Both the position numbers and the translations under genes were made by a program. A stretch of 36,913 nucleotides of DNA from a virus: positions 1 through 36,913 of IMG/VR virus record IMGVR_UViG_3300037796_000051. One strand, written 5' to 3'. Under the pieces are notes generated by a model. The model did no database searches, was not told where the DNA came from, and saw only the letters and a program-made list of their open reading frames with translations. Position 1 is the stretch's first letter. Each line of letters starts with the position of its first letter. This document shows positions 105 to 35,943 of the stretch, piece by piece.

Positions 105-1691
105 ATGAGCACGCTTGTATTGCCGAATGGCATGCCGTACCAGCCACAGCAGCCAACGAATGAGGGCGCGTACTTCGAGGCGCTCGCCTCCCTACTGGAG
201 AGCCGCATTGGCGAGCTTGAGCTTGAGTTGTACGGTCCGGATGCACGCTGGGAACAACTACACGGCAGCGGCGATCAGTTCACGCGGCAATCTATCCAGG
301 AAGTGGCAAACCTTGCTGAGGTGATGTACCTCAAAAATCCGCTCATTCAGCGGGGCATCAACATCAAAACGTTTTACACCTTCGGACAGGGCGTACAGGT
401 GAGCGCGCCAAACCCTGAGATCAACGACGTTATTCAATCATTCTGGGATGATGAGCGAAACCAGGCCGAACTCACCCGAACGCAGGCAATGATGGGCAAG
501 GACGTTGACTTGCAGGTGTCGGGCAATCTTTTCTTTGTGCTCTTTACAAACCAGCGGAGCGGGCGCGTACGTGTGCGGAGCGTGCCGCTTGCTGAGATAC
601 AAGAGATCGTCTGTAACCCAGACGACGCAAAGGAGCCGTGGTATTATCTGCGCCGATGGACGCAGACAGGTGCGCAAGGTGGCTACCGCGCCGCGTACTA
701 TCCCGACTGGCGCTATACGCCGCGTAACAAACCTGATGCCTACAACGGCATTGCTATCGAATGGGACGCGCCGATCTATCACATCAAAGTCGGCGGCATG
801 TCCTGGTGGCAGTTCGGGCTGTCAACGGTGTATGCGCAGATCGATTGGGCACGGGCGTACAAGGTGTTCTTGGAGAGCATCCACAGTTACACTCAGGCCG
901 TGAGCCGCATTGCCGTCAAAGTCACGACGGGCGGCGGCGCGGGCGGCGTTGCGAAGGCCAAGAGTAAACTTGCCTCTACCATTAGCAGCCATGATCGGCG
1001 CGAAACCAACCCCGCAACCGCAACCGGAAGCGCGTTCATTCGGGCAAACTCGGACTCCGATTATGAGCCGCTGAACATTCGCGGGCTGTCGGTTGCGCCT
1101 GAGGATGGTCGTCGTTTTCTGCTGATGGTCGCGGCAGCAGCGGGCATTCCTGAGGTGTTTTACGGTGATGCCGATGTCGGCAACCACGCAACGGCGAAGA
1201 GCCTGGATAGGCCGACTGAGTTGATGATGCGTTACCGTCAGGAGATGTGGCGGAGTGTCCTGCAAGACATCCTCGGGTATGTTGTCAAGAACGCAGCGAT
1301 GGCGCCACGCGGCGCGCTGGCAGGGATGGCGGATGTGCAGCGCGAGCCAGACGAGGCCGACCCAGGGCAAGACACTATCACCCTGGATTGGAACACGAAC
1401 CCCGAGACGGGCGAGCCATACGACAGCAGTATCGTGATCGATTTCCCTGAGATCATCAACATCGATGTAAAGGAACGTGTCGAGGCGATCACCACGGCGT
1501 ACCAATCGCAGACGGTGAGTGCTCGCACGGTAGCGCGCCTTCTCCTCGTTGCGCTTGGCGTTGAGGATGTAGACAAAGAACTGGACGCGATGTACCCCGA
1601 CGACTGGCAGCCCGGGGACTTCGGCGACGGCACACCGCCGGATATGGAAGAGGTAGCACGGCGGATTGTAGAAGCAGTGCGGGAGGTGTAG
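105..1691 (+). CDS. Phage portal protein
   Basis: A 528-residue protein of the size and composition usual for portals. These form the dodecameric ring at one capsid vertex through which DNA is packaged and to which the connector binds. Portal-like features include the early segment LKNPLIQRGINIKTFYTFG (about residues 77-95), a central region with VPLAEIQEIVCNPDD, a core with GIPEVFYGDADVGNHATAKS (about 348-367), and an acidic C-terminus. Its position ahead of the Mu-F-like, protease and capsid genes is canonical. The start ATG follows a GGAG at 91-94. No other family fits as well. Confidence 0.85.
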   Translation: MSTLVLPNGMPYQPQQPTNEGAYFEALASLLESRIGELELELYGPDARWEQLHGSGDQFTRQSIQEVANLAEVMYLKNPLIQRGINIKTFYTFGQGVQVSAPNPEINDVIQSFWDDERNQAELTRTQAMMGKDVDLQVSGNLFFVLFTNQRSGRVRVRSVPLAEIQEIVCNPDDAKEPWYYLRRWTQTGAQGGYRAAYYPDWRYTPRNKPDAYNGIAIEWDAPIYHIKVGGMSWWQFGLSTVYAQIDWARAYKVFLESIHSYTQAVSRIAVKVTTGGGAGGVAKAKSKLASTISSHDRRETNPATATGSAFIRANSDSDYEPLNIRGLSVAPEDGRRFLLMVAAAAGIPEVFYGDADVGNHATAKSLDRPTELMMRYRQEMWRSVLQDILGYVVKNAAMAPRGALAGMADVQREPDEADPGQDTITLDWNTNPETGEPYDSSIVIDFPEIINIDVKERVEAITTAYQSQTVSARTVARLLLVALGVEDVDKELDAMYPDDWQPGDFGDGTPPDMEEVARRIVEAVREV

Positions 1692-1995: not shown

Positions 1996-2273
1996 TCGGT
2001 CCGATGACAGAGCGTGACAAAATCTCGACAGGGCACGCTATTCAGCACTTGCGCGATTGTGGTTGGACGATCCGCCGTATTGATGATGATGAGGCGTCAT
2101 GGGCGGTGCTTGATCTCGACAATAACACTCGTGAGCGTTATACGTATCCCGTCTGGCGCTATGAGGTGACGCCGCCGCCGGGCACGCCGCCGCCCGATCA
2201 CACACCGATAGAGTGCAATGATAGCATGTTACGCTGCATTGCCCATTATGACGCGGGATGGACATGGGAGTGA
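1992..2273 (+). CDS. Hypothetical protein, 93 aa
   Basis: The frame is open further upstream, but the ATG at 1992 is preferred: it overlaps the previous stop (ATGA) and is preceded by GGGAGGGA. The product begins MIGPMTERDKISTGHAIQ and has a short basic/acidic N-terminal half, then a Pro-rich stretch (TPPPGTPPPDHTP, about residues 65-77). Near its middle, IRRIDDDEASWAVLD looks like a small beta-rich domain. No family is recognised. It is translationally coupled on both sides. Confidence 0.6.
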   Translation: MIGPMTERDKISTGHAIQHLRDCGWTIRRIDDDEASWAVLDLDNNTRERYTYPVWRYEVTPPPGTPPPDHTPIECNDSMLRCIAHYDAGWTWE

Positions 2274-3073
2274 TCGTCGTTGATCGCATCACTGAGGCAC
2301 TCGGCACGAACGAACGTGACCGGCGCCTGCGCCCGATTGAGCGCCGCCTGTCGCGGGCTATGGCTGATGCATTCAAGCGCCAATCGAATACATTTTTGCG
2401 AGAGTTGCGGAAGTTGCGAGACGCGTTCCCGGAACCGCTTCAGGAGAGTGTGCCAGAGAACATCTGGATTACCGCCTGGCTCGATACCGTGCGACTGACA
2501 CAGCAGGTTATGACGGCGCCAATCGAAGCAGCGGCGCGGGCGTCCTGGATTGTTGGCAATGAAGACATTCAGCGTGAGGCGGGCCTACGCATCGCATTCG
2601 ACATTGACAACCCGGAGGCTGTGCAATTCCTACGTGACTACGGCGCGCAACGTGTCACGATGATCAACGATACGACGCGAGACTACATCCGTACGTTGAT
2701 GGTTGAGGGGATGGAGCAGGGCACATCGTATACCGAGATGGCGCGCCAGATACGCACCCGCTTTGCCGAGTTCAGCGCGCCACAGCCGCAGCGCCATCTG
2801 CGCAATCGTGCCGAGCTGGTAGCCGTGACTGAGACGGCGAATGCATACGGGACCGCGCAACGTCAAGCAGCGGAGCGCATAGAGCGCGAGGGTATTCGCA
2901 TGCAACATCGCTGGATTACGACGGGGGATGATCGGGTGAGCGACGGGTGTAGGCAGAATGCAGCGGTGGGATGGATACCAATGGCGCAAGCGTTCCCATC
3001 TGGTGACTATCACGAGCCGCGCTTCCCCGGTTGTCGCTGCGCCGTACAGCACAGGAGGGCACGCGATGGATAA
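2258..3073 (+). CDS. Head morphogenesis / minor head protein (Mu gpF-like)
   Basis: A 271-residue protein overlapping the end of the previous gene. The C-terminal half carries the typical Mu-F pattern: AELVAVTETANAYGTAQRQA (about residues 186-205), then HRWITTGDDRVSDGC (about 216-230) and a terminal FPGCRCAVQHR. In this family the His/Cys cluster and the TEx(2)NAY helix are the conserved core. These proteins attach near the portal and help build the procapsid. The N-terminal half is helical. A second ATG at 2264 is an equally plausible start. Confidence 0.8.
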   Translation: MDMGVIVVDRITEALGTNERDRRLRPIERRLSRAMADAFKRQSNTFLRELRKLRDAFPEPLQESVPENIWITAWLDTVRLTQQVMTAPIEAAARASWIVGNEDIQREAGLRIAFDIDNPEAVQFLRDYGAQRVTMINDTTRDYIRTLMVEGMEQGTSYTEMARQIRTRFAEFSAPQPQRHLRNRAELVAVTETANAYGTAQRQAAERIEREGIRMQHRWITTGDDRVSDGCRQNAAVGWIPMAQAFPSGDYHEPRFPGCRCAVQHRRARDG

Positions 3074-3284
3074 CCAACAGAAGGTCCGTGAGGCGCTACT
3101 CAAGCTCCATCCACCGCTTGTGGAATGCGCGCAACTGCTGCCCACCTCTGAGCAGCGCATTCGCCCACAGGTGATCTCACTGGCGGTGCTCATCGAACGG
3201 CATTACGATCTGCCCCGTACCCTGTTCACCAGGCGCGAACGGCGCGATGGCGGCGAAATCGAAGGTTGTATTAGTAAATATTGA
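3066..3284 (+). CDS. Hypothetical protein, 72 aa
   Basis: Starts at ATG 3066, overlapping the last codons of the minor head gene. The frame extends further upstream, but only as a shadow of that gene. The protein begins MDNQQKVREALLKLHPPL and is mostly helical and charged. A C-terminal RRERRDGGEIEGC is basic then acidic. No family is recognised. The end of the gene overlaps the -35 box of a promoter (3281-3286), so this is the last gene of the first late block. Confidence 0.5.
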   Translation: MDNQQKVREALLKLHPPLVECAQLLPTSEQRIRPQVISLAVLIERHYDLPRTLFTRRERRDGGEIEGCISKY

Positions 3285-3309
3285 CAACACATATCCACAC
3301 GCTTATAAT
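3281..3309 (+). promoter_or_regulatory. Consensus sigma70-type promoter upstream of capsid genes
   Basis: TTGACA at 3281-3286 and TATAAT at 3304-3309 are both perfect hexamers with a 17-base spacer. The predicted start is near 3316. It lies in the only sizeable gap of the head module and points at the decoration, protease and capsid genes, but a strong terminator hairpin intervenes. Confidence 0.8.
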
Positions 3310-3315
3310 AAGGAT

Positions 3316-3410
3316 AGTCTACGCTTAAACTTTTAGGCGTTTTATATATTCACTGAATGCGGAAACGTAAGCGGTGCATTCTCCTTCGGGAGGGTGCGCC
3401 GCTTTTTTTG
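3316..3410 (+). ncRNA. Candidate short structured leader or small RNA
   Basis: This is the interval between the predicted transcription start and the T-tract of the terminator, about 95 nt. It holds a 5' hairpin at 3321-3340 (arms ACGCTTAA and TTAGGCGT with one G-T pair, loop 4 nt). The 16-bp UUCG-capped terminator hairpin follows. No ORF with a ribosome site is evident. It could be an independent small RNA, or a leader whose terminator is relieved to switch on the capsid genes. Confidence 0.4.
3369..3409 (+). terminator. Strong intrinsic terminator with UUCG loop
   Basis: The arms 3369-3384 and 3389-3404 pair over 16 positions, with three G-T pairs, around a TTCG tetraloop. Seven Ts follow at 3403-3409. 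It lies 60 bases downstream of a consensus promoter and 20 bases upstream of the decoration-gene start. Confidence 0.75.
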
Positions 3411-3428
3411 TCCTCTGGGAGGGAACGA

Positions 3429-3833
3429 ATGGCAACAAACATTACCGAGTACCTGAGCGATTACGGACGGTCGGTCACGGTGACGCACCCGACGACGCCC
3501 GCCAGCGGTGACCCGGTGCTCTGGAATAATGTCACCGGCGTTGCAATCACGGACGAGGGCGACGGGCAGAATGATGCAACCGACACGACTGTGCTATTCG
3601 GCGATTACGTCGCGACGGTGCGTGTTATTCCATACAGCGGCCCGGTTGACGGGCGCGTACAGACGACCGTAGTGGCAGGGGACGCGATTTATTACGACAG
3701 CACTGTGAGTGCTACCGAAAGCAGCCCGCTCAACCTCAACACCGATGGCGTGTTCTTCGGCTACGCCGTGAGTAGCGTCGCATCGGCGGCAGGTGTCGCG
3801 GGCGCTGAAATTTCGGTGTGGCATATCCAATAA
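3429..3833 (+). CDS. Capsid decoration / cement-like protein (DUF2190-like)
   Basis: A 134-residue protein, Gly/Thr/Val-rich with a beta-strand pattern and few charges. Features such as DPVLWNNVTGVAITDEGD (about residues 29-46), VAGDAIYYD and FFGYAVSSVASAAG match DUF2190/YjcG-type decoration proteins that bind the outside of HK97-fold capsids. Position immediately upstream of the protease and capsid genes supports this. The start ATG 3429 follows GGGAGGGA. The frame is open upstream into the terminator, which is not coding. Confidence 0.65.
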   Translation: MATNITEYLSDYGRSVTVTHPTTPASGDPVLWNNVTGVAITDEGDGQNDATDTTVLFGDYVATVRVIPYSGPVDGRVQTTVVAGDAIYYDSTVSATESSPLNLNTDGVFFGYAVSSVASAAGVAGAEISVWHIQ

Positions 3834-5590
3834 TGCCCTACACCGTCCGCCAGTGTGATACTCAGTGGTGCGTCGTCAAGGACGATGGCGAGGTTGTGGG
3901 TAGGCACGACAGCCGCGCCGCTGCTGAAGATCAGAAAACCGCTCTCGACATCAACGTCACCTCACAAGAGGCCGAGAGTTACACGCCGCCTCAAGGTGTC
4001 CGAGACGCCGCACAACGTGCGCTGGACTGGCGAGATGAGTACGGGCGCGGCGGCACTGACGTTGGCATTGCGCGGGCGCGTGACCTGGCGAATGGGCGCA
4101 ACATCTCGGCAGACACTATCCAGCGGATGGTCTCGTTCTTTGCCCGTCATGGTGTCAATCGCAGCGAGCATTACGCTCTGGAAGACGGTGAGCCGACGAC
4201 GTGGCGCATTGCCTGGGATTTATGGGGCGGCGATGCGGGGCGGCGATGGTCGGAGAGGATAGCAAGACAAATGGACAGAGAACAGGAAAGCACAACTGAA
4301 GCGCAAGAGGACGCGCCGAACTATCGCGCTACTTTCGATGAGCTTGAGACGTGCGGCAATTGCGAGTTTCGCCGGGGCAGTATTTGCACCCGCTTTGATT
4401 TCGAGACGTCGGACGAAATGACGTGCGATGATCATCAGTTTGCCGAAGCCGAAGAGGCTGCCGCGTCTCTCGAGAACGCTATCCAGGAGGCGGGGCGCAA
4501 ACTCAACAAGCGCAACATGCAGCGCGTGATGGACGCCATGAAGATGCTGCAAGAGATGATCGATGAGATGACGCCCGATGAGGCGTACAAAGATGATGAG
4601 ATGGAAGAGGCGTCGTTTCTGGCCGAGACGAAACTGCGCGAGCAGGAGCGCAACGGGCGCGCCCTCATTCGCATCATTACCCCTGGCTGGGGCAGCAGCG
4701 GCTACTACCCGGCAGACGTACTACGCCGCGATGGGCCGACCGTGTTCAGGGCTGGCACCCAACTGTACCTGAACCACCCAACGCGAACCGAGGAGGCCGA
4801 ACGCCCCGAGCGCGACATCCGCGATCTTGCGGGCAAGTTGGCCAGTGACGCGGTGTGGATGGATGATGGCCTGTATGCCGATGTCGAGTACTACAACAAC
4901 CATCGTCCGCTTATTGCGGCTATTGGCGAGGACCTTGACGTATCCATTCGCGCTGATGGCACCTACCGCACCGGCGAGGCCGAAGGACGCAAGGGCCGCA
5001 TTATTGAGCAGCTTGTTAGGGCTGAGAGTATAGACTTCGTCACGCGTGCAGGCGCGGGCGGCAAAGTGGCGCGCCTTATGGAAGGGCGCCAGGATAAACC
5101 AACTGAAAAAGTCCGGAGGGGCAAAGTGAAACCAGAGGAACTCACGGCACTCCAGGAGCGGCTTGCCCGTCTGGAGGAAACCAATCAGGCACATGTCAAT
5201 GTGCGAACGGAACTCGAGGAGGCGCTGAAGGCAGAGCGACAGGCGCGCCTGCTGACTGAGGCGCGGCATTACATCCAGGAACGTCTCGACAGAAACTTCC
5301 CGCCGCTCACGGCGGCGCGCCTGTCGCGGGAACTGGAGCGCAATATTCCGTACACCGAGGATGGTATGGCGATTAACTATACCGAGTTTAGCAAGCACAT
5401 CAAAGAGGCGAGCGACGCGGCACGCGCTGAACTGGTAGAAGGTGCGCCGTCGGGCATCATTCGCGGGATGGGCGCTAGCGCGCCTGCTGTACTCACAGAT
5501 GCCGATCTTGATGCGAAAATTGAGGAGGCATTCCGGGCTAGTGGCATGGATGAACAGCGCGCCAAGATTGCAGCGCGGGGGGTGCGGTAA
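3833..5590 (+). CDS. Prohead protease fused to a scaffold-like C-terminus
   Basis: A 585-residue multi-domain protein starting at ATG 3833 (TAATG overlap with the decoration gene). Residues about 1-145 carry a module with LDWRDEYGRGGTDVGIARAR and IAWDLWGGDAGRRW, seen at the front of some phage proteases. A cysteine motif follows (C174, C177, C185, C198). Residues about 280-420 look like a serine maturation protease, with His315 in LNHPT and Ser371 in LDVSIRADG as catalytic candidates. Residues about 430-585 form a charged coiled coil resembling a scaffold. Protease and scaffold in one chain would be self-cleaved during maturation. The catalytic assignment is inference from spacing. Confidence 0.75.
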   Translation: MPYTVRQCDTQWCVVKDDGEVVGRHDSRAAAEDQKTALDINVTSQEAESYTPPQGVRDAAQRALDWRDEYGRGGTDVGIARARDLANGRNISADTIQRMVSFFARHGVNRSEHYALEDGEPTTWRIAWDLWGGDAGRRWSERIARQMDREQESTTEAQEDAPNYRATFDELETCGNCEFRRGSICTRFDFETSDEMTCDDHQFAEAEEAAASLENAIQEAGRKLNKRNMQRVMDAMKMLQEMIDEMTPDEAYKDDEMEEASFLAETKLREQERNGRALIRIITPGWGSSGYYPADVLRRDGPTVFRAGTQLYLNHPTRTEEAERPERDIRDLAGKLASDAVWMDDGLYADVEYYNNHRPLIAAIGEDLDVSIRADGTYRTGEAEGRKGRIIEQLVRAESIDFVTRAGAGGKVARLMEGRQDKPTEKVRRGKVKPEELTALQERLARLEETNQAHVNVRTELEEALKAERQARLLTEARHYIQERLDRNFPPLTAARLSRELERNIPYTEDGMAINYTEFSKHIKEASDAARAELVEGAPSGIIRGMGASAPAVLTDADLDAKIEEAFRASGMDEQRAKIAARGVR

Positions 5591-6762
5591 TGAGTATTGA
5601 ATTTGCGGGCCTGATGGAGGCCGATGGTGTACAGGCGGCGACGTTTGAAGCGTTGGCACGCCAGAACGCACAGATCAGCCGCGACACAACCGAATACAAA
5701 CGGCGTTTTCACGAGGCTCAGTTGTATCTGGACAAACTACGAACCAAGCAGACACGCATCCCGCTCCGTGAGGCAATGTCCACCAGCGATTTCCCCAACC
5801 TCTTCGGGGATATCCTCTCACGTCGTCTTGCTGCTGACTATATGGTATACGGCACGTCCTGGACAGAGTATGCCGAGCGCCGAATGGTGCCTGACTTTCG
5901 CAACGTCAAGACGTTCGCCGTGTATGGCGGCGACCAGTTGCTCACAGAGGCGCCCGAAGGTACCACCGGCGTGGGTTATAAGCCTGTGGAAGACCGGGAA
6001 CTTACTGAATATGCCGTCAAGAAGTACGTGCGGCGACTCCAGTTGACGATGGAAGCACTCGTGAATGATGACCTTGGCGCGTTTGATCGGTTGCCTACCA
6101 AGTTGGCGGCAGGCGCTCGCCGCAGTGAAGAGAAGTTCGTAACTGAACTGTACGCAGGCACGTCGGGACCGCTCGCGGCTGTCTACAACGCAACCAATAA
6201 CAACGTCGTCACGAGTAACCCGGAACTCTCAATCAGCGCACTCCAGACGGCATACCAGGTACTCAAGAACCAGACTGATGAAAACGGGCTGCCCATCTTT
6301 ATCGATGCGGTGACGCTCGTAGTGCCGCCTGCACTGGAGATCACAGCACGCAACATTCTCAACGCGACACAACTGGAGATCGGCCTTGTGGGCCAGGGCG
6401 CTGTTGCTGCCCCGGCGGATGAGCAGCGGATTGTTACCGCAAACTGGATGGCGAACAAAACGCAGATTGTCGTCAATCCGTGGCTGCCGTACATTGCCAC
6501 GTCTAATGGCGATACCTCGTGGTATCTGTTCGCATCGCCCACCAGCGGGCGCCCGGCGATTGAAGTGGGGTTCCTGTCGCTCCTGGGAGGCGCGCCTGCG
6601 ATTTTCCGGCGCCGTCCAGACGCCGTGAGCCTGACCGGCAACACCGAAATTCCCATCGGCTCGTTTGATAGTAACGCCTACGAGTGGGGCGTGATGCATG
6701 TGTTCGGTGGGCAACTGGCCGATTTCCGCTGCACGGTGGCTAGTAACGGAAGCGGCTCGTAA
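5590..6762 (+). CDS. Major capsid protein (HK97-fold)
   Basis: A 390-residue protein translated from an overlapping start (TAATG) after the protease-scaffold. The N-terminal 70 residues are helical (N-arm). Then come TRIPLREAMSTSDFPNLFGD (about residues 55-74), an extended-loop-like segment with FAVYGGDQLLTEAPEGTTGV, and the long helix EEKFVTELYAG. A beta-rich P/A-domain section contains TLVVPPALEITARNILNA, and the end contains EWGVMHVFGGQLADFRC. The length and order are those of HK97-type capsid proteins. It is expected to be the most abundant virion protein. Confidence 0.85.
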   Translation: MSIEFAGLMEADGVQAATFEALARQNAQISRDTTEYKRRFHEAQLYLDKLRTKQTRIPLREAMSTSDFPNLFGDILSRRLAADYMVYGTSWTEYAERRMVPDFRNVKTFAVYGGDQLLTEAPEGTTGVGYKPVEDRELTEYAVKKYVRRLQLTMEALVNDDLGAFDRLPTKLAAGARRSEEKFVTELYAGTSGPLAAVYNATNNNVVTSNPELSISALQTAYQVLKNQTDENGLPIFIDAVTLVVPPALEITARNILNATQLEIGLVGQGAVAAPADEQRIVTANWMANKTQIVVNPWLPYIATSNGDTSWYLFASPTSGRPAIEVGFLSLLGGAPAIFRRRPDAVSLTGNTEIPIGSFDSNAYEWGVMHVFGGQLADFRCTVASNGSGS

Positions 6763-24899: not shown

Positions 24900-25100
24900 T
24901 CACAGCGTGAATGTGTCATCATCATCATCAGGCGACTGTGGCGGCTGTGGCGCGTTCTGTTGCTGTATACCGCGCAGTAGGGCCGCCTTTACATCGTTTT
25001 GGCGTTTCCGTAATGAGAGGCTGTCGAGCCATTTGGCGATGGCGTTGTCGCTCTCATCGTCCAGATAGAGCAGCAGTGTATAGCGGCGCGGCTCAGGCAT
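24900..25100 (-). CDS. parR: ParR-like partition adaptor, 66 aa
   Basis: The ATG at 25100 overlaps the parM stop (8-base overlap). The upstream extension of the frame is a shadow of parM. MPEPRRYTLLLYLDDESDNA starts a short strand followed by two helices (IAKWLDSLSLRKRQNDVKAA), as in small ribbon-helix-helix ParR/StbB proteins. The C-terminus DDDDDTFTL is acidic and could contact ParM, as the C-terminal tail of ParR does in known systems. It is assigned by its place directly after the actin-like gene and its size; sequence identity is low. Confidence 0.65.
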   Translation of the reverse strand: MPEPRRYTLLLYLDDESDNAIAKWLDSLSLRKRQNDVKAALLRGIQQQNAPQPPQSPDDDDDTFTL

Positions 25101-26145
25101 CGTCACGGCCCCACTTCTGCACAGCCATTTCTGCATATCCCCTGACAGGCGCCTCGTGTGGCGCGTGTTTTTCTGGCATTCCCATCGGCAGTTTTCCGTG
25201 CCACGTTGCGCGAATGGACGGCCCGAACGTCGTATCTGTTGCGCCGCCTCCAACAACTAGCAAATAATGCGTTGAGAACCCTTCAAAATGGGCACGTATC
25301 TCCTCATGTGCGCGTGCCCAGAGACTATCACGAAGGTCGTCAATCTCAGGCGCGATGCTCTCATCCTTGCCGTCAATGGTCACAACCCGCTCTGCAATGG
25401 CCCGATCAACCTCCCAGAGTTCCGGCAGACCCGGCGCGCCTTGCAATCGCTGGAGTAACTCGGCAACCTTGCTACGTAGCGTCTGGACGCCAAACCGCAA
25501 CGCTTTAGAACGTCGGTAGATTTCTTGCATCTCACTGCTGCCATCGGCGCGGCGTTCGGGCCGGAGCGCGATCAAGTCGGTGGTAAATGTACCCACGTCA
25601 ATGCCAATAATGTTGGCCTTATGGAGCGGTCGCTTCTGGAGTGCCTGTTTCAGCTCGGCAGGAGTATGTGCGCTGAAATAGAGCACGGCGCCGCGCGGCT
25701 GCGAGGTCACATGCACGTCTGTGATATTCACACGGTAGCTCGCGTCCGCTCGCGTGAACTCATGTGAGCCTGTGAAAAAGTCTTGAATGTCGCGTTTCAA
25801 TGCGCGATATGCTTCCGCGTTCGCCCCCGCGACCATCCGAATGGTGTACTCTCCAGGCGGGAGTAGTTCGGAAAGTGCGGCGTAGAGGCGGATGTGCGCA
25901 TCTGGCGACGTGTAGCGGTAGTTGCTCGTGGCATAGGCGGTGGCGCCCTGTGCGCGGGCCGCATCGCCTACAAGATACTGATTACGATTATGACCGATAA
26001 CAATCACATCAGGGCGCAATAGGTATTCTTCATCCATGCCTGCCTCAACGGGTAGCACTAGTGCTGGTATCGCCGTGACCTGCATTCCATTGTCCGCTAC
26101 ACCCGCCTTTGTCAATCCAGCTCCATCATCATACACGACATGCAT
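25093..26145 (-). CDS. parM: ParM-like actin-family ATPase
   Basis: A 350-residue protein starting at ATG 26145 (GAGGAGGGG upstream). The actin-superfamily motifs are in order: VVYDDGAGLTKAG (phosphate-1, about residues 3-15), GIDVGTFTTDLIA (phosphate-2, about 181-193) and YLLVVGGGATDTTFG (adenosine motif, about 294-308). The length fits plasmid ParM/Alp proteins rather than chromosomal MreB. It would form filaments that push ParR-bound centromeres apart. It shares an operon with parR and lies downstream of three 11-bp repeats. Confidence 0.8.
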   Translation of the reverse strand: MHVVYDDGAGLTKAGVADNGMQVTAIPALVLPVEAGMDEEYLLRPDVIVIGHNRNQYLVGDAARAQGATAYATSNYRYTSPDAHIRLYAALSELLPPGEYTIRMVAGANAEAYRALKRDIQDFFTGSHEFTRADASYRVNITDVHVTSQPRGAVLYFSAHTPAELKQALQKRPLHKANIIGIDVGTFTTDLIALRPERRADGSSEMQEIYRRSKALRFGVQTLRSKVAELLQRLQGAPGLPELWEVDRAIAERVVTIDGKDESIAPEIDDLRDSLWARAHEEIRAHFEGFSTHYLLVVGGGATDTTFGPSIRATWHGKLPMGMPEKHAPHEAPVRGYAEMAVQKWGRDDA

Positions 26146-26160
26146 ACACCCCTCCTCACA

Positions 26161-26193
26161 ACAACTTATAACAAACTTATAAGTCAATTATAA
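26161..26193. repeat. Three tandem 11-bp repeats, candidate centromere (parC)
   Basis: ACAACTTATAA (26161-26171), CAAACTTATAA (26172-26182) and GTCAATTATAA (26183-26193) are exact tandem 11-mers sharing the TTATAA core. Plasmid parC sites bound by ParR are built from short tandem repeats close to the helical pitch, placed just before parM. Here they also overlap the -10 of the parM promoter, so ParR could autoregulate it. Confidence 0.7.
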
Positions 26194-30177: not shown

Positions 30178-30951
30178 CTACACAAAGCACATCCCCATAC
30201 CACACTGCCTATTCTCGCCTTTGTCGGGTGTGTCGATGTCGGCCTCTGCTAGTGGCACACGGCCACGGTGCAGCCAGAGAGGGAAATCGTCTACGGTGTC
30301 CAGTGTTGCGGCGTCTCTCAATTCTTCGTCTAATTGAATGGCCCTTTCCCATTCCTCTGGGTAGTTGTCGCGGATGTGGCGCCATTGCGCGTTGGTGCGA
30401 TGAGGACACATCCAACATGCCGACTTCGGCGGCTCTGGTAAGCCCTCTGCCTGGATAATGTTCAAACAATCCTGCCGGGTCAGGTTGAGTTCGAGCAGAG
30501 GATAGCGGATGCTGATCCACTTCTCGCTGTCCTGAAGCGTAGCCCGGCGGCGCTCGTCAAGCGAAAACCCTATCCAGGCAACAGCACTGGTCACTCCCTG
30601 GGCGCGTAGCCAACGATTACGCACGCGTTTTTTCCACTCGATGCTGCACCATGTCCGTAGTTGCCCGGTTGCAGTGTGCATCGGCATAAGCACATCACCC
30701 TGGTGGCTGTACAGGTCGACGGTAGACAGTTCGTGTGGCGCGATGTCCACGTGTAGCCCGTGGCGCTCCAGGAACGGTTGCATCACTTCGTCCAAATAAT
30801 CCCACGTGCTAGTTGCCTCGCGCCCGGTATCGGCACATACGATGTAGTCAGGCCGCTCCAGGACGCCGCGTGCCACCAGGACACACATAGCGACACTCTG
30901 CACGCCGCCGCCATAACTTAAGACGTTCGTTCTATGGTCATTCACATTCAT
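30178..30951 (-). CDS. PP-loop / PAPS-reductase-like enzyme
   Basis: The ATG at 30951 is chosen because the protein then begins just before RTNVLSYGGGVQSVAMCVLV, a PP-loop (GGGVQS). YIVCADTGREATSTWDYLD matches the adenylate-binding region. LRTWCSIEWKKRVRNRW and, near the C-terminus, SACWMCPHRTNAQWRHIRDN provide cysteines. The chain ends CGMGMCFV. Phages carry such ATP-pyrophosphatase-type enzymes, perhaps in DNA or tRNA modification. None of its partners is visible, so the substrate is unknown. Confidence 0.7.
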   Translation of the reverse strand: MNVNDHRTNVLSYGGGVQSVAMCVLVARGVLERPDYIVCADTGREATSTWDYLDEVMQPFLERHGLHVDIAPHELSTVDLYSHQGDVLMPMHTATGQLRTWCSIEWKKRVRNRWLRAQGVTSAVAWIGFSLDERRRATLQDSEKWISIRYPLLELNLTRQDCLNIIQAEGLPEPPKSACWMCPHRTNAQWRHIRDNYPEEWERAIQLDEELRDAATLDTVDDFPLWLHRGRVPLAEADIDTPDKGENRQCGMGMCFV

Positions 30952-31135
30952 ATACCCCCACAATGCTATTCCACAGCGCAACCTTGCGGCGCTGGCGGTA
31001 GTCTTTCTGTGTTCGCCGCTTATACTCGCGGCTGTATTCGCGGCGCCGCTCGCGGTTGCGCTCTCTCCAGCGGCGTTGTGCCTCCTTGACGCGCTCCGGA
31101 TGGCGCTTGCGGTATCGCGTGGCACGGTCGCTCAT
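30938..31135 (-). CDS. Highly basic small protein, 65 aa
   Basis: RYRKRHPERVKEAQRRWRER and NRERRREYSREYKRRTQKDY are Arg-rich helices, as in the basic linker of some HNH-type phage proteins. No HNH motif is present. It is coupled on both sides. A nucleic-acid-binding role is likely. Confidence 0.5.
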   Translation of the reverse strand: MSDRATRYRKRHPERVKEAQRRWRERNRERRREYSREYKRRTQKDYRQRRKVALWNSIVGVYECE

Positions 31136-31885: not shown

Positions 31886-32096
31886 TGGTCGTCTCCTTTG
31901 TTGCTTCGTTGAACTGTTCATACCGCTCCACGATAGAGCGGGCCTCTTCCATCCGTCGCGTGGTGCCGATGATCATATCATCACACCACACGTCTGCCAC
32001 GCCTGTATCGAGATGTAGCAGTAGTGCCGAGCCGCGGTAGAAATTCGGACACAATGACTTGTCTAAAAATCGCAGCCAGGGACGCGAATGTTTCAT
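31878..32096 (-). CDS. Hypothetical protein, 72 aa
   Basis: Strong ribosome site (GGGGGAGGA), start overlapping the repressor stop. MKHSRPWLRFLDKSLCPNFY then LLLHLDTGVADVWCDDMIIG: alpha/beta. Unknown. First gene after the repressor. Confidence 0.5.
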   Translation of the reverse strand: MKHSRPWLRFLDKSLCPNFYRGSALLLHLDTGVADVWCDDMIIGTTRRMEEARSIVERYEQFNEATKETTNE

Positions 32097-32362
32097 TCCT
32101 CCCCCTCTGTTACAATATGCTCCAACAAATCATCCAGTTCAACAATGTACTCCAACAGATGGCCGGGTTGAACGTTGTAGTATGCGCAAAGTCGTGCGAT
32201 CATGTCGCCCGTTGGTGTCTCGCCTGGGTTGTTCTCAAAAAATGACACGCGCGATCGACTGAAGCCAATTTCACGAGCCACATCTGACACGGAAAGATTT
32301 TCGCCCAATTCCGCTGCTCGTTGCAGGCGAACATCTCTCAATTTATTCACAAGCTTCCCCAT
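32093..32362 (-). CDS. XRE-family repressor, 89 aa (cI-like)
   Basis: Start ATG 32362, after AGAAAGGAGAGGGGG; the frame extends about 66 codons further but that part lies in the promoter region. VSDVAREIGFSRSRVSFFEN is the Cro/cI-type helix-turn-helix, with a preceding N-terminal helix (KLVNKLRDVRLQRAAELGEN) and the C-terminal DLLEHIVTEGEE dimer-type helix. Unlike lambda cI it has no peptidase domain, so SOS self-cleavage is not expected. It sits opposite the early promoter and is likely the lysogeny repressor. Confidence 0.85.
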   Translation of the reverse strand: MGKLVNKLRDVRLQRAAELGENLSVSDVAREIGFSRSRVSFFENNPGETPTGDMIARLCAYYNVQPGHLLEYIVELDDLLEHIVTEGEE

Positions 32363-32395
32363 AAACCCCCTCTCCTTTCTCCTCTGCACAGGCTC

Positions 32396-32424
32396 ATTGT
32401 ATCTCATCACAACCGTTTTGTCAA
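32396..32424 (-). promoter_or_regulatory. Repressor promoter (leftward)
   Basis: Minus strand: TTGACA (32424-32419) and TACAAT (32401-32396), 17-base spacer. The start lies about 27 bases before the repressor ATG. It drives the repressor-led operon of small genes. Confidence 0.8.
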
Positions 32425-32465
32425 CATCCCCATACGCTTCGTAAAACAACCTAGACAAAGCGGTT
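32411..32465. promoter_or_regulatory. Inverted operator pair in the divergent control region
   Basis: AACCGTTTTGTC at 32411-32422 and GACAAAGCGGTT at 32454-32465 are inverted copies differing at one of 12 positions. Each overlaps the -35/spacer of one of the two divergent promoters, so one repressor could control both directions. Confidence 0.7.
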
Positions 32466-32480
32466 ATAGTATGATACAAT
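32452..32480 (+). promoter_or_regulatory. Early rightward promoter
   Basis: TAGACA (32452-32457) and TACAAT (32475-32480), 17-base spacer, start near 32487. It drives the replication operon beginning at 32526. Confidence 0.75.
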
Positions 32481-32525
32481 AACAGCACGTCGCAACGGGC
32501 GGCGCCACACAAAGAGGAGCATCGG

Positions 32526-32675
32526 ATGAACCACAAGCACGTTGAGTACGACACGATCACAGGCGACTATGCCGCGTATCTGGACGGCGACCTTATAGGA
32601 TTTTATCCTACGCGCCAGACAGCGCAGGCGGCGCTGGATGATATCGTTTTCAAACGTTTGAAAGGGCAAAGGTGA
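32526..32675 (+). CDS. Early protein, 49 aa
   Basis: First gene after the early promoter, with AAAGAGGAG. MNHKHVEYDTITGDYAAYLD through GFYPTRQTAQAALDDIVFKR: short strands and a C-terminal helix. It overlaps the next start by one base (TGATG). Its place suggests a regulator (Cro-like role), but no HTH is evident. Confidence 0.6.
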   Translation: MNHKHVEYDTITGDYAAYLDGDLIGFYPTRQTAQAALDDIVFKRLKGQR

Positions 32676-34543: not shown

Positions 34544-35731
34544 ATGGCAGATTACGACAATGCACGTGCTGCAATACAGGAACTCCTAGAGGGTGCGACA
34601 GAACAGCCTGCTACCGGGCTAGACGCGTGGCAGCACGTCTATGATGATCTCTACTCCATCTATCAAAGCGACGGGGTAGAGGGTGTGCGTCGTGCAGCAA
34701 TGGCAGACAAAACGATAGTCAAGTTGATTGCAAGCGGCAAGGACTTGACGTATACCACGGGGCAACCTGTCCCCGTCAGTGCCCGCGATTTAGCATACAA
34801 AGACATTCCTCCTACACGGTACTACCTGGATGGTATCCTGCGCACGGGGTTGGCGCTATACATCGGCAACCCAGGGATAGGCAAGACGCCCGCTCTGTTG
34901 CAGTTGGCAATTGCGCTCACCTACGGGGGCCGTTGGATGGGGGCATTCCAGTGCCGTAAAAGTCGCGTGCTGTACATCGGTGTCGAGTATGACGAAGCCT
35001 ATATGCAGGAGTTGTTGATTGATAGCCACGGCAGCAAGGACTTGCCCGATGGCCTGTTCATCCACACCGTTGAGACATTCACTCCGCCCACCAGCGAGGC
35101 CGATAGTATCGAGATGATGGAGTTCTATATTTCCACAATGCAGATCGACGTGGTGATTATTGACACGTTTTCCGGATTTTTACCCCGCGAAAAGTTTAAA
35201 CAAGACAAATATCGCGGGGATTATGCCGAGTTCCTCGCGTATCATCGCATTAGCCTGAAGCATAGCGCGCTCATCCTCGGTTCATGGCATGGCACCAAAC
35301 GCGACCCAGACCCAGAGACGGCATACAACGGGGGCCAGGGCATGTGGGGCAGTGCTGGCGGTGGGCGCTTGACGATGTTCCGAGACAACGACGAAGAAGT
35401 GCGGTTGCGCTCGCAACTCCGTGGACACGAGCGACAGGAATGGTTACTCCAGCAGGTGCGCCTGGGGGAGGCTCGGCAGTGGGCAGTGGTAGACGCCGAC
35501 CCAGAGCCGATTTTTGGGAGCGACATACAACGGGACGTGTACCGCGTGGTGAAACAGTACAGCACGAAAGCGGAGCCGATCACGCCGGCGGGCGTGATGG
35601 GTATTCTCAAAGGTGACGACCCAACAAGTTCCATTAAAGAAGGCACCGTGCGACAGACGATGAACCGGATGGCAGATCGGGGCTTCTTTACCAAGGCGGG
35701 CGGCGGCTACATTGTTACAGGGCAAAAGTAG
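34544..35731 (+). CDS. RepA-like hexameric helicase (RecA-fold ATPase)
   Basis: A 395-residue protein. Walker A GNPGIGKT at about residues 108-115, Walker B IDVVIIDTFSG with Asp near 207. LGSWHGTKRDPDPETAYNGG corresponds to the sensor/linker region of AAA_25/RepA-type helicases. The N-terminal 60 residues are helical; the C-terminal 100 (VYRVVKQYSTKAEPITPAGV, GTVRQTMNRMADRGFFTKAG) form a winged helix. Likely the replicative helicase. It sits directly next to the iteron array. Confidence 0.75.
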   Translation: MADYDNARAAIQELLEGATEQPATGLDAWQHVYDDLYSIYQSDGVEGVRRAAMADKTIVKLIASGKDLTYTTGQPVPVSARDLAYKDIPPTRYYLDGILRTGLALYIGNPGIGKTPALLQLAIALTYGGRWMGAFQCRKSRVLYIGVEYDEAYMQELLIDSHGSKDLPDGLFIHTVETFTPPTSEADSIEMMEFYISTMQIDVVIIDTFSGFLPREKFKQDKYRGDYAEFLAYHRISLKHSALILGSWHGTKRDPDPETAYNGGQGMWGSAGGGRLTMFRDNDEEVRLRSQLRGHERQEWLLQQVRLGEARQWAVVDADPEPIFGSDIQRDVYRVVKQYSTKAEPITPAGVMGILKGDDPTSSIKEGTVRQTMNRMADRGFFTKAGGGYIVTGQK

Positions 35732-35914
35732 CTGTAACGCAAAAAGCCTGTAACAGCTGTAACAGGGCGCGAATATGGCATACCAAAGACAAATGAGCTG
35801 TAACGCAAGTTGTAACAGGGCTGTAACAGCTGTAACGCTTATAGAGACTAAGCATCAATAAGCGTTACACCTGTTACACCTGTTACAACTGTAACAGGTG
35901 TTACAAGCGTTACA
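35714..35914. repeat. TGTAAC iteron array, candidate replication origin
   Basis: Fourteen copies of TGTAAC or its reverse complement GTTACA occur in about 200 bases, many 9 bases apart. Forward copies start at 35733, 35749, 35758, 35799, 35811, 35822, 35831 and 35890; reverse copies at 35714, 35864, 35873, 35882, 35900 and 35909. A perfect 12-bp inverted repeat (35831-35842 with 35858-35869) marks where orientation flips. The first copy lies inside the helicase gene and the last ends 30 bases before the next start. Confidence 0.85.
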
Positions 35915-35943
35915 GCGAGTGAGGGAAGTTGAAGGGGTGTGAG

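Follow-up and report, generated by a model that had tools for sequence, protein, structure and literature searches.

Why would a phage place a consensus promoter, and a strong terminator shortly behind it, in front of its capsid genes? This question is raised by a viral DNA sequence of 36,913 nucleotides (IMG/VR record IMGVR_UViG_3300037796_000051), which we call the window and always mean at its full length. The original prediction offered two answers: either a small RNA of roughly 95 nt is made, or the capsid genes are controlled by relief of termination. Here, we compare the locus to related phages, and the comparison leads us to regard the element as probably a self-contained small-RNA gene between head genes, that is, a noncoding 'moron'.

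A promoter, a predicted RNA and a terminator between head genes

The promoter consists of TTGACA (3281-3286) and TATAAT (3304-3309) on the + strand with a 17-nt spacer, and the 72-aa ORF upstream ends with a TGA stop that shares bases with the -35 box (Table 1). This is the sole exact match (12 of 12 bases) in the 36.9-kb record when spacings of 16-18 nt are searched. Base composition predicts about 0.0014 exact matches by chance with a 17-nt spacer and 0.004 with spacers of 16-18 nt. The claim that consensus boxes at exact 17-base spacing are rare here thus holds, with a single match compared to an expectation of about 0.001-0.004. The terminator was also placed correctly (3369-3409): about 60 bases past the promoter, a hairpin of 16 pairs with a UUCG loop (3369-3404) leads into a run of seven Ts (3403-3409), the first two of which are paired in the stem. 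Stems of at least 12 pairs followed by six Ts were absent from 100 dinucleotide shuffles of the window.

Table 1. Features of the element and its neighbouring genes in the window.
Feature	Position	Strand	Evidence or remark
Portal gene	105-1691		Upstream of the element; Pfam/PHROG searches
Mu-F-type head gene	2258-3073		Upstream of the element; Pfam/PHROG searches
Small ORF, 72 aa	3066-3284	+	No Pfam or PHROG match; conserved in relatives
Promoter, TTGACA-17-TATAAT	3281-3309	+	Expected start near 3316; hexamers invariant in window-type relatives
Predicted small RNA, about 88-96 nt	3316-3410	+	Start placed by the -10 box, 3' end by the T run
Type-specific 5' hairpin, ACGCUUAA/UUAGGCGU	3321-3340	+	Folding; one copy in the window
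Unpaired AU-rich stretch, its end starting ACUGAAU	3341-3357	+	Window type: none of 17 sites varies
Four-pair hairpin with GNRA loop	3358-3369	+	3 of 4 pairs changed on both sides among relatives
UUCG intrinsic terminator and T run	3369-3409	+	Sequence, covariation, shuffles
Decoration (cement) protein gene, directly downstream	3429-3833	+	PHROG 122, 4.6e-7
Head maturation protease gene	3833-5590	+	PHROG 15531, 1.6e-29
Major capsid gene	5590-6762	+	Pfam Phage_capsid_4, 2.4e-38

The predicted RNA folds with an energy of -39.2 kcal/mol (z-score -5.8), which was reached by none of 200 shuffles. Its terminator hairpin had been recognised from the start, but two smaller hairpins (3321-3340 and 3358-3369) had been overlooked. 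The hairpin at 3321-3340 is palindromic as DNA and could have an operator role. A shared repressor operator was rejected, as the palindrome occurs only once in the window and no operator link could be established. The linker of the RNA has no complementarity of at least 9 nt to the phage itself.

The element was described as lying ahead of the capsid genes. This needs one correction: with portal and Mu-F genes upstream and decoration, protease and major capsid genes downstream, it sits inside the head block and does not precede it. The decoration gene is assigned by its PHROG match, and its Pfam cement score of 22.8 bits is slightly below the cut-off of 24.

A conserved 3' module in related phages

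To find relatives, we used three proteins (capsid, Mu-F and protease) as queries against IMG/VR. This resulted in 18 further contigs that contain in full the region from the small ORF to the decoration gene (hereafter the slot); most of them come from one metagenome series and several are near-identical. The flanking DNA is alike on both sides of the slot, whereas many contigs differ or gain DNA between the ORF stop and a position corresponding to about 3350. What follows is kept in all 18 relatives, just before the decoration gene: a 3' module of unpaired ACUGAAU, GNRA hairpin and UUCG terminator. ACTGAAT is invariant in all 15 aligned sequences, and a covariance model finds the module once per record in 11 of 11 related phage records, including L057, whose capsid protein has 69% identity.

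The structure of the module was evaluated in an alignment of 15 sequences, 13 of which are distinct. All cells of hairpin and terminator are paired (100%), and five pairs are changed on both sides. None of 500 shuffles matched the real alignment in covariation score, percentage of paired cells or changes on both sides, and sliding the structure along the alignment reduced the paired cells to 37-67%. The GNRA hairpin and the invariant ACUGAAU are features that a terminator alone would not be expected to need.

A pattern search for the module in other phages gave no new true cases, its extra matches lying in unrelated sequence without this terminator, and a search of 400 Chloroflexota genomes with one mismatch allowed gave none that was convincing. 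The covariance model detected no module in five whole bacterial genomes, where part of the candidates was scored. GenBank phages contain no DNA match to positions 2900-4000, and the element is absent from distant prophages whose capsid genes are homologous. In L147, a different phage, a weak match of the covariance model is a related hairpin without T run, on the strand opposite to the RNA-like segment described below. No Rfam family cut-off was reached, either by the window and nine relatives searched at cut-off or in a permissive search with the slots of the window, L025 and L057. We rejected a match to NrrF (24.8 bits compared to a cut-off of 60) and other matches far below their cut-offs as chance.

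The nearest relatives of the capsid protein in genomes are found in Chloroflexota and Actinobacteria prophages with about 40-46% identity. With regard to lifestyle, the window encodes a partition protein (25093-26187, - strand) and a repressor-like regulator (32093-32560, - strand) with divergent promoters beside it, which point to a phage that is temperate and perhaps plasmid-like. Some ten TGTAACAG/CTGTTACA repeats lie in an intergenic region adjoining an AAA_25 helicase gene (35731-35920) and are likely a replication origin. Furthermore, the window encodes a PAPS-reductase-like protein (30178-31125, - strand) with a PADLOC match to SspD (6e-18).

Exchange of the promoter and the 5' part

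A promoter-like site is located upstream of the module in all 18 relatives, at distances of 10-645 nt. At the same promoter score, only about 2% of 120-nt stretches per strand hold such a site by chance. The sites differ in sequence and in their distance to the module. In the window type, the -10 box ends 42 nt before ACUGAAU. In a second short type, this distance is 25 nt and the -10 box is covered by a palindrome. L007 has an extended -10 form only 10 nt before ACUGAAU, the distances in L057 and L031 are 89 nt and 112 nt, and the promoter candidates of L025 are found 405-645 nt upstream of the module. Two relatives (L018 and L020) contain one more whole promoter-RNA-terminator unit in tandem, ahead of a unit of the window type. 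In the 5' part, relatives thus have one of several short types, an additional tandem unit (two cases) or a longer segment that is RNA-like. Judged from these sequences, the unit that is exchanged is the promoter together with the 5' part of the predicted RNA, and the 3' module is the constant part. In five relatives (L010, L021, L026, L029 and L033), additional reading frames are located before the promoter, so that the promoter there would serve the RNA alone.

The perfect palindrome of the second type, GCCAGTGCGGTATACTGGC, is found over the -10 box at L002:3669-3687, L033:7381-7399, L010:5398-5416 and in others, and is possibly an operator. The idea that it is an operator shared with other sites was discarded, since the records searched contain no second perfect copy.

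To estimate selection on the RNA, we compared variable sites among the window and three other phages of its type (L017, L027 and L024). The predicted RNA is variable at 5 of 95 sites and the promoter hexamers at 0 of 12, whereas variation in the flanking coding genes amounts to 129 of 620 sites overall and to 98 of 205 when third-codon positions are counted alone (RNA compared to third-codon positions, Fisher p 9e-15). The putative noncoding RNA is under stronger constraint than the adjacent genes, which points to strong purifying selection.

Further contents of the slot

Some phages carry longer RNA-like segments, located at L025:1540-2192, L147:7100-7600 (- strand) and L019:4850-4957, where only the start is present because the contig ends. 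The segments of L025 and L147 are 96% alike over 215 nt, though the capsid genes differ, and in L147 the protease and capsid genes that the segment precedes represent another capsid type. The long segment contains sequences resembling the acceptor and T-arm of a tRNA and ends in ACCA. In L025, it was found neither by Rfam nor by ARAGORN, and a group II intron origin was dismissed as it has no Rfam support. The L025 segments fold no better than shuffles; their structure is thus argued from sequence likeness only. With their tRNA-like pieces, the long segments of L025, L019 and L147 resemble the structured phage RNAs GOLLD and ROOL (PMC12286853); however, they have no Rfam match to either, are shorter and have no tRNA genes nearby in the loci scanned.

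The slot of L057 contains a type IV-B-like cas cluster (L057:151-4359) with csf1, cas11, csf2, a DNA methylase gene, a cysH-like gene and csf3. A promoter-like site follows directly, and behind it lie a short tRNA-like RNA and the 3' module. The ORFs examined do not include a cas6 gene, and in passing we noticed no CRISPR array. PADLOC also detects a type IV cluster of csf1, cas11, csf2 and csf3, apparently array-less as well, between the portal and Mu-F genes of L007 (L007:1166-4792), with one intervening ORF that matched nothing known. No natural RNA partner is known for type IV-B complexes (PMC7937560, PMC8175902), and the RNA of L057 could be such a partner. On a wider interpretation, the slot would serve for the exchange of noncoding phage RNAs that either cooperate with RNA-guided complexes of host or phage or counteract them, with the RNA of the window as a minimal member of the set; we regard both ideas as improbable. 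Since csf2 is present in only 2 of the 16 records searched, and the window is not one of them, a connection between cas genes and slot RNAs is a lead only. The cas genes beside the slot RNA of L057, together with the longer RNA-like segments of the slot for which Rfam has no family, provide a testable candidate for the partner of type IV-B complexes.

Switch, decoy or relict?

The main alternative to a small-RNA gene is regulated readthrough into the capsid operon. In phage lambda, the strong promoter PR' is followed by the short 6S RNA, the terminator tR' and the late genes; this unit lies beside Q and before the whole late operon. The window has the same order of promoter, short predicted RNA, terminator and capsid genes. 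According to this explanation, the promoter is constitutive and transcription stops at the terminator until, late in infection, an antiterminator of the phage that loads on or close to the promoter lets polymerase into the decoration, protease and major capsid genes; the promoter types would then differ because antiterminator specificities differ. It agrees with this explanation that in every relative the element directly precedes the genes for decoration protein, protease and capsid, and that in L147, a different phage, a promoter and an RNA-like segment are also located ahead of protease and capsid genes. Furthermore, the terminator ahead of the capsid genes is strong and no other good + strand promoter is seen between it and the capsid gene. 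Late transcripts must somehow get past the terminator, which gives a protein-driven switch some probability. It fits less well that the portal and Mu-F head genes are upstream of the promoter, unlike in lambda, that L018 and L020 have tandem units, and that the element is missing from distant prophages with homologous capsid genes. No Q-like gene or other antiterminator was recognised among the proteins searched with PHROGs, but many proteins are unassigned or lie outside this search, so that a missing antiterminator or integrase proves nothing. Weighing these observations, we see regulated readthrough as possible but rather doubtful.

Relief of termination could also be achieved by the RNA itself, if GAAUGC in the leader paired with GCAUUC in the terminator stem to form an antiterminator. 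The complementarity is present in the window and 94.7% of the cells in the alignment can pair; however, the covariation of this helix is on par with shuffles (90 of 500) and the fit fails in several relatives, whereas the terminator form pairs perfectly. In L007, the module begins only a few bases after the expected start, with hardly any room for a leader sensor. An antiterminator formed by alternative folding is therefore the least credible of the explanations considered. It is similarly hard to see the element as a relict, that is, a former moron that lost its cargo gene and kept a promoter and a terminator without function. Although some relatives have reading frames in the same slot, these precede the promoter and do not lie between promoter and terminator, and the RNA is more conserved than the surrounding genes; we thus disfavour a relict as very unlikely. 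We give an equally low chance to an RNA anti-CRISPR or a similar decoy of RNA-guided host defence. Racrs are short phage RNAs near predicted promoters in intergenic regions (PMC10651486), which is also where the predicted RNA of the window lies, close behind its promoter. The turnover of the 5' part would suit an arms race, and two relatives have type IV cas genes in the same or a neighbouring slot. Racrs, however, mimic CRISPR repeats (PMC10651486), whereas by eye we noticed no likeness to CRISPR repeats in the window RNA, and Rfam gave no match at family cut-off.

A probable small-RNA gene with an exchangeable 5' end

We return to the small-RNA gene, which we consider the probable explanation. 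The comparison of relatives has strengthened the suggestion of an RNA of about 95 nt, as there is a promoter-like site in every relative, a covarying structure, purifying selection, and exchange of the promoter together with the 5' part. The element has its own promoter and terminator, and the unit is present, exchanged or extended in relatives, as is characteristic of morons. As far as sequence comparison can tell, the slot has the appearance of a place where small RNAs are plugged in, and not of an ordinary switch for coat genes.

We infer that the unit is transcribed, also in lysogens, that termination is efficient and that the RNA acts in trans. Transcription would start near 3316 from a strong promoter of constitutive type and stop at about 3403-3410, yielding an RNA of about 90-95 nt with the type-specific 5' hairpin, unpaired ACUGAAU, the GNRA hairpin and the terminator hairpin. 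The terminator would form the 3' end of the RNA and, outside the lytic cycle, would shield the capsid genes from the strong promoter; late transcripts from farther upstream would presumably cross it by antitermination or leaky readthrough. That the 3' module is kept while the promoter and 5' part are exchanged suggests a division of labour. Like prophage sRNAs with targets among host RNAs, the slot RNAs may have a 5' part that provides a changing target specificity and a 3' module with a common function such as stabilising the RNA or binding a shared partner.

The nearest known kind appears to be the anti-sRNAs of EHEC prophages, where the likeness is one of architecture and not of sequence. 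AgvB and AsxR (EcOnc01-03) are 51-60 nt long with variable parts of 14-18 nt (Tree et al. 2014, PMC4104026). They occupy moron sites next to the late promoter PR' and are bound by Hfq in E. coli, and two of them have been shown to antagonise host sRNAs (PMC4104026). The slot RNAs share with them the moron site, a conserved 3' part with terminator and a variable 5' part, but are predicted to be longer (about 60-95 nt or more), lie inside the head genes and have their own promoters, which are exchanged as well. The Pas sRNAs of E. coli prophages similarly adjoin capsid or tail genes and end in an intrinsic terminator, and PasA and PasA-2 share their 3' end whereas the first 40 bases differ (PMC13192938). 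The Pas sRNAs are enterobacterial, however, and are not known to have a covarying GNRA hairpin module or exchanged promoters.

If our explanation is right, small RNAs can be plugged in at one site within the head genes of these phages, where the 3' end is common to all and the promoter and 5' end are exchangeable. The idea of prophage anti-sRNAs, known from E. coli, would then extend to uncultured phages. It would also provide a rule for finding further cases, namely to search the gaps that separate structural genes for units of promoter, RNA and terminator that can be aligned at the 3' end but not at the 5' end.
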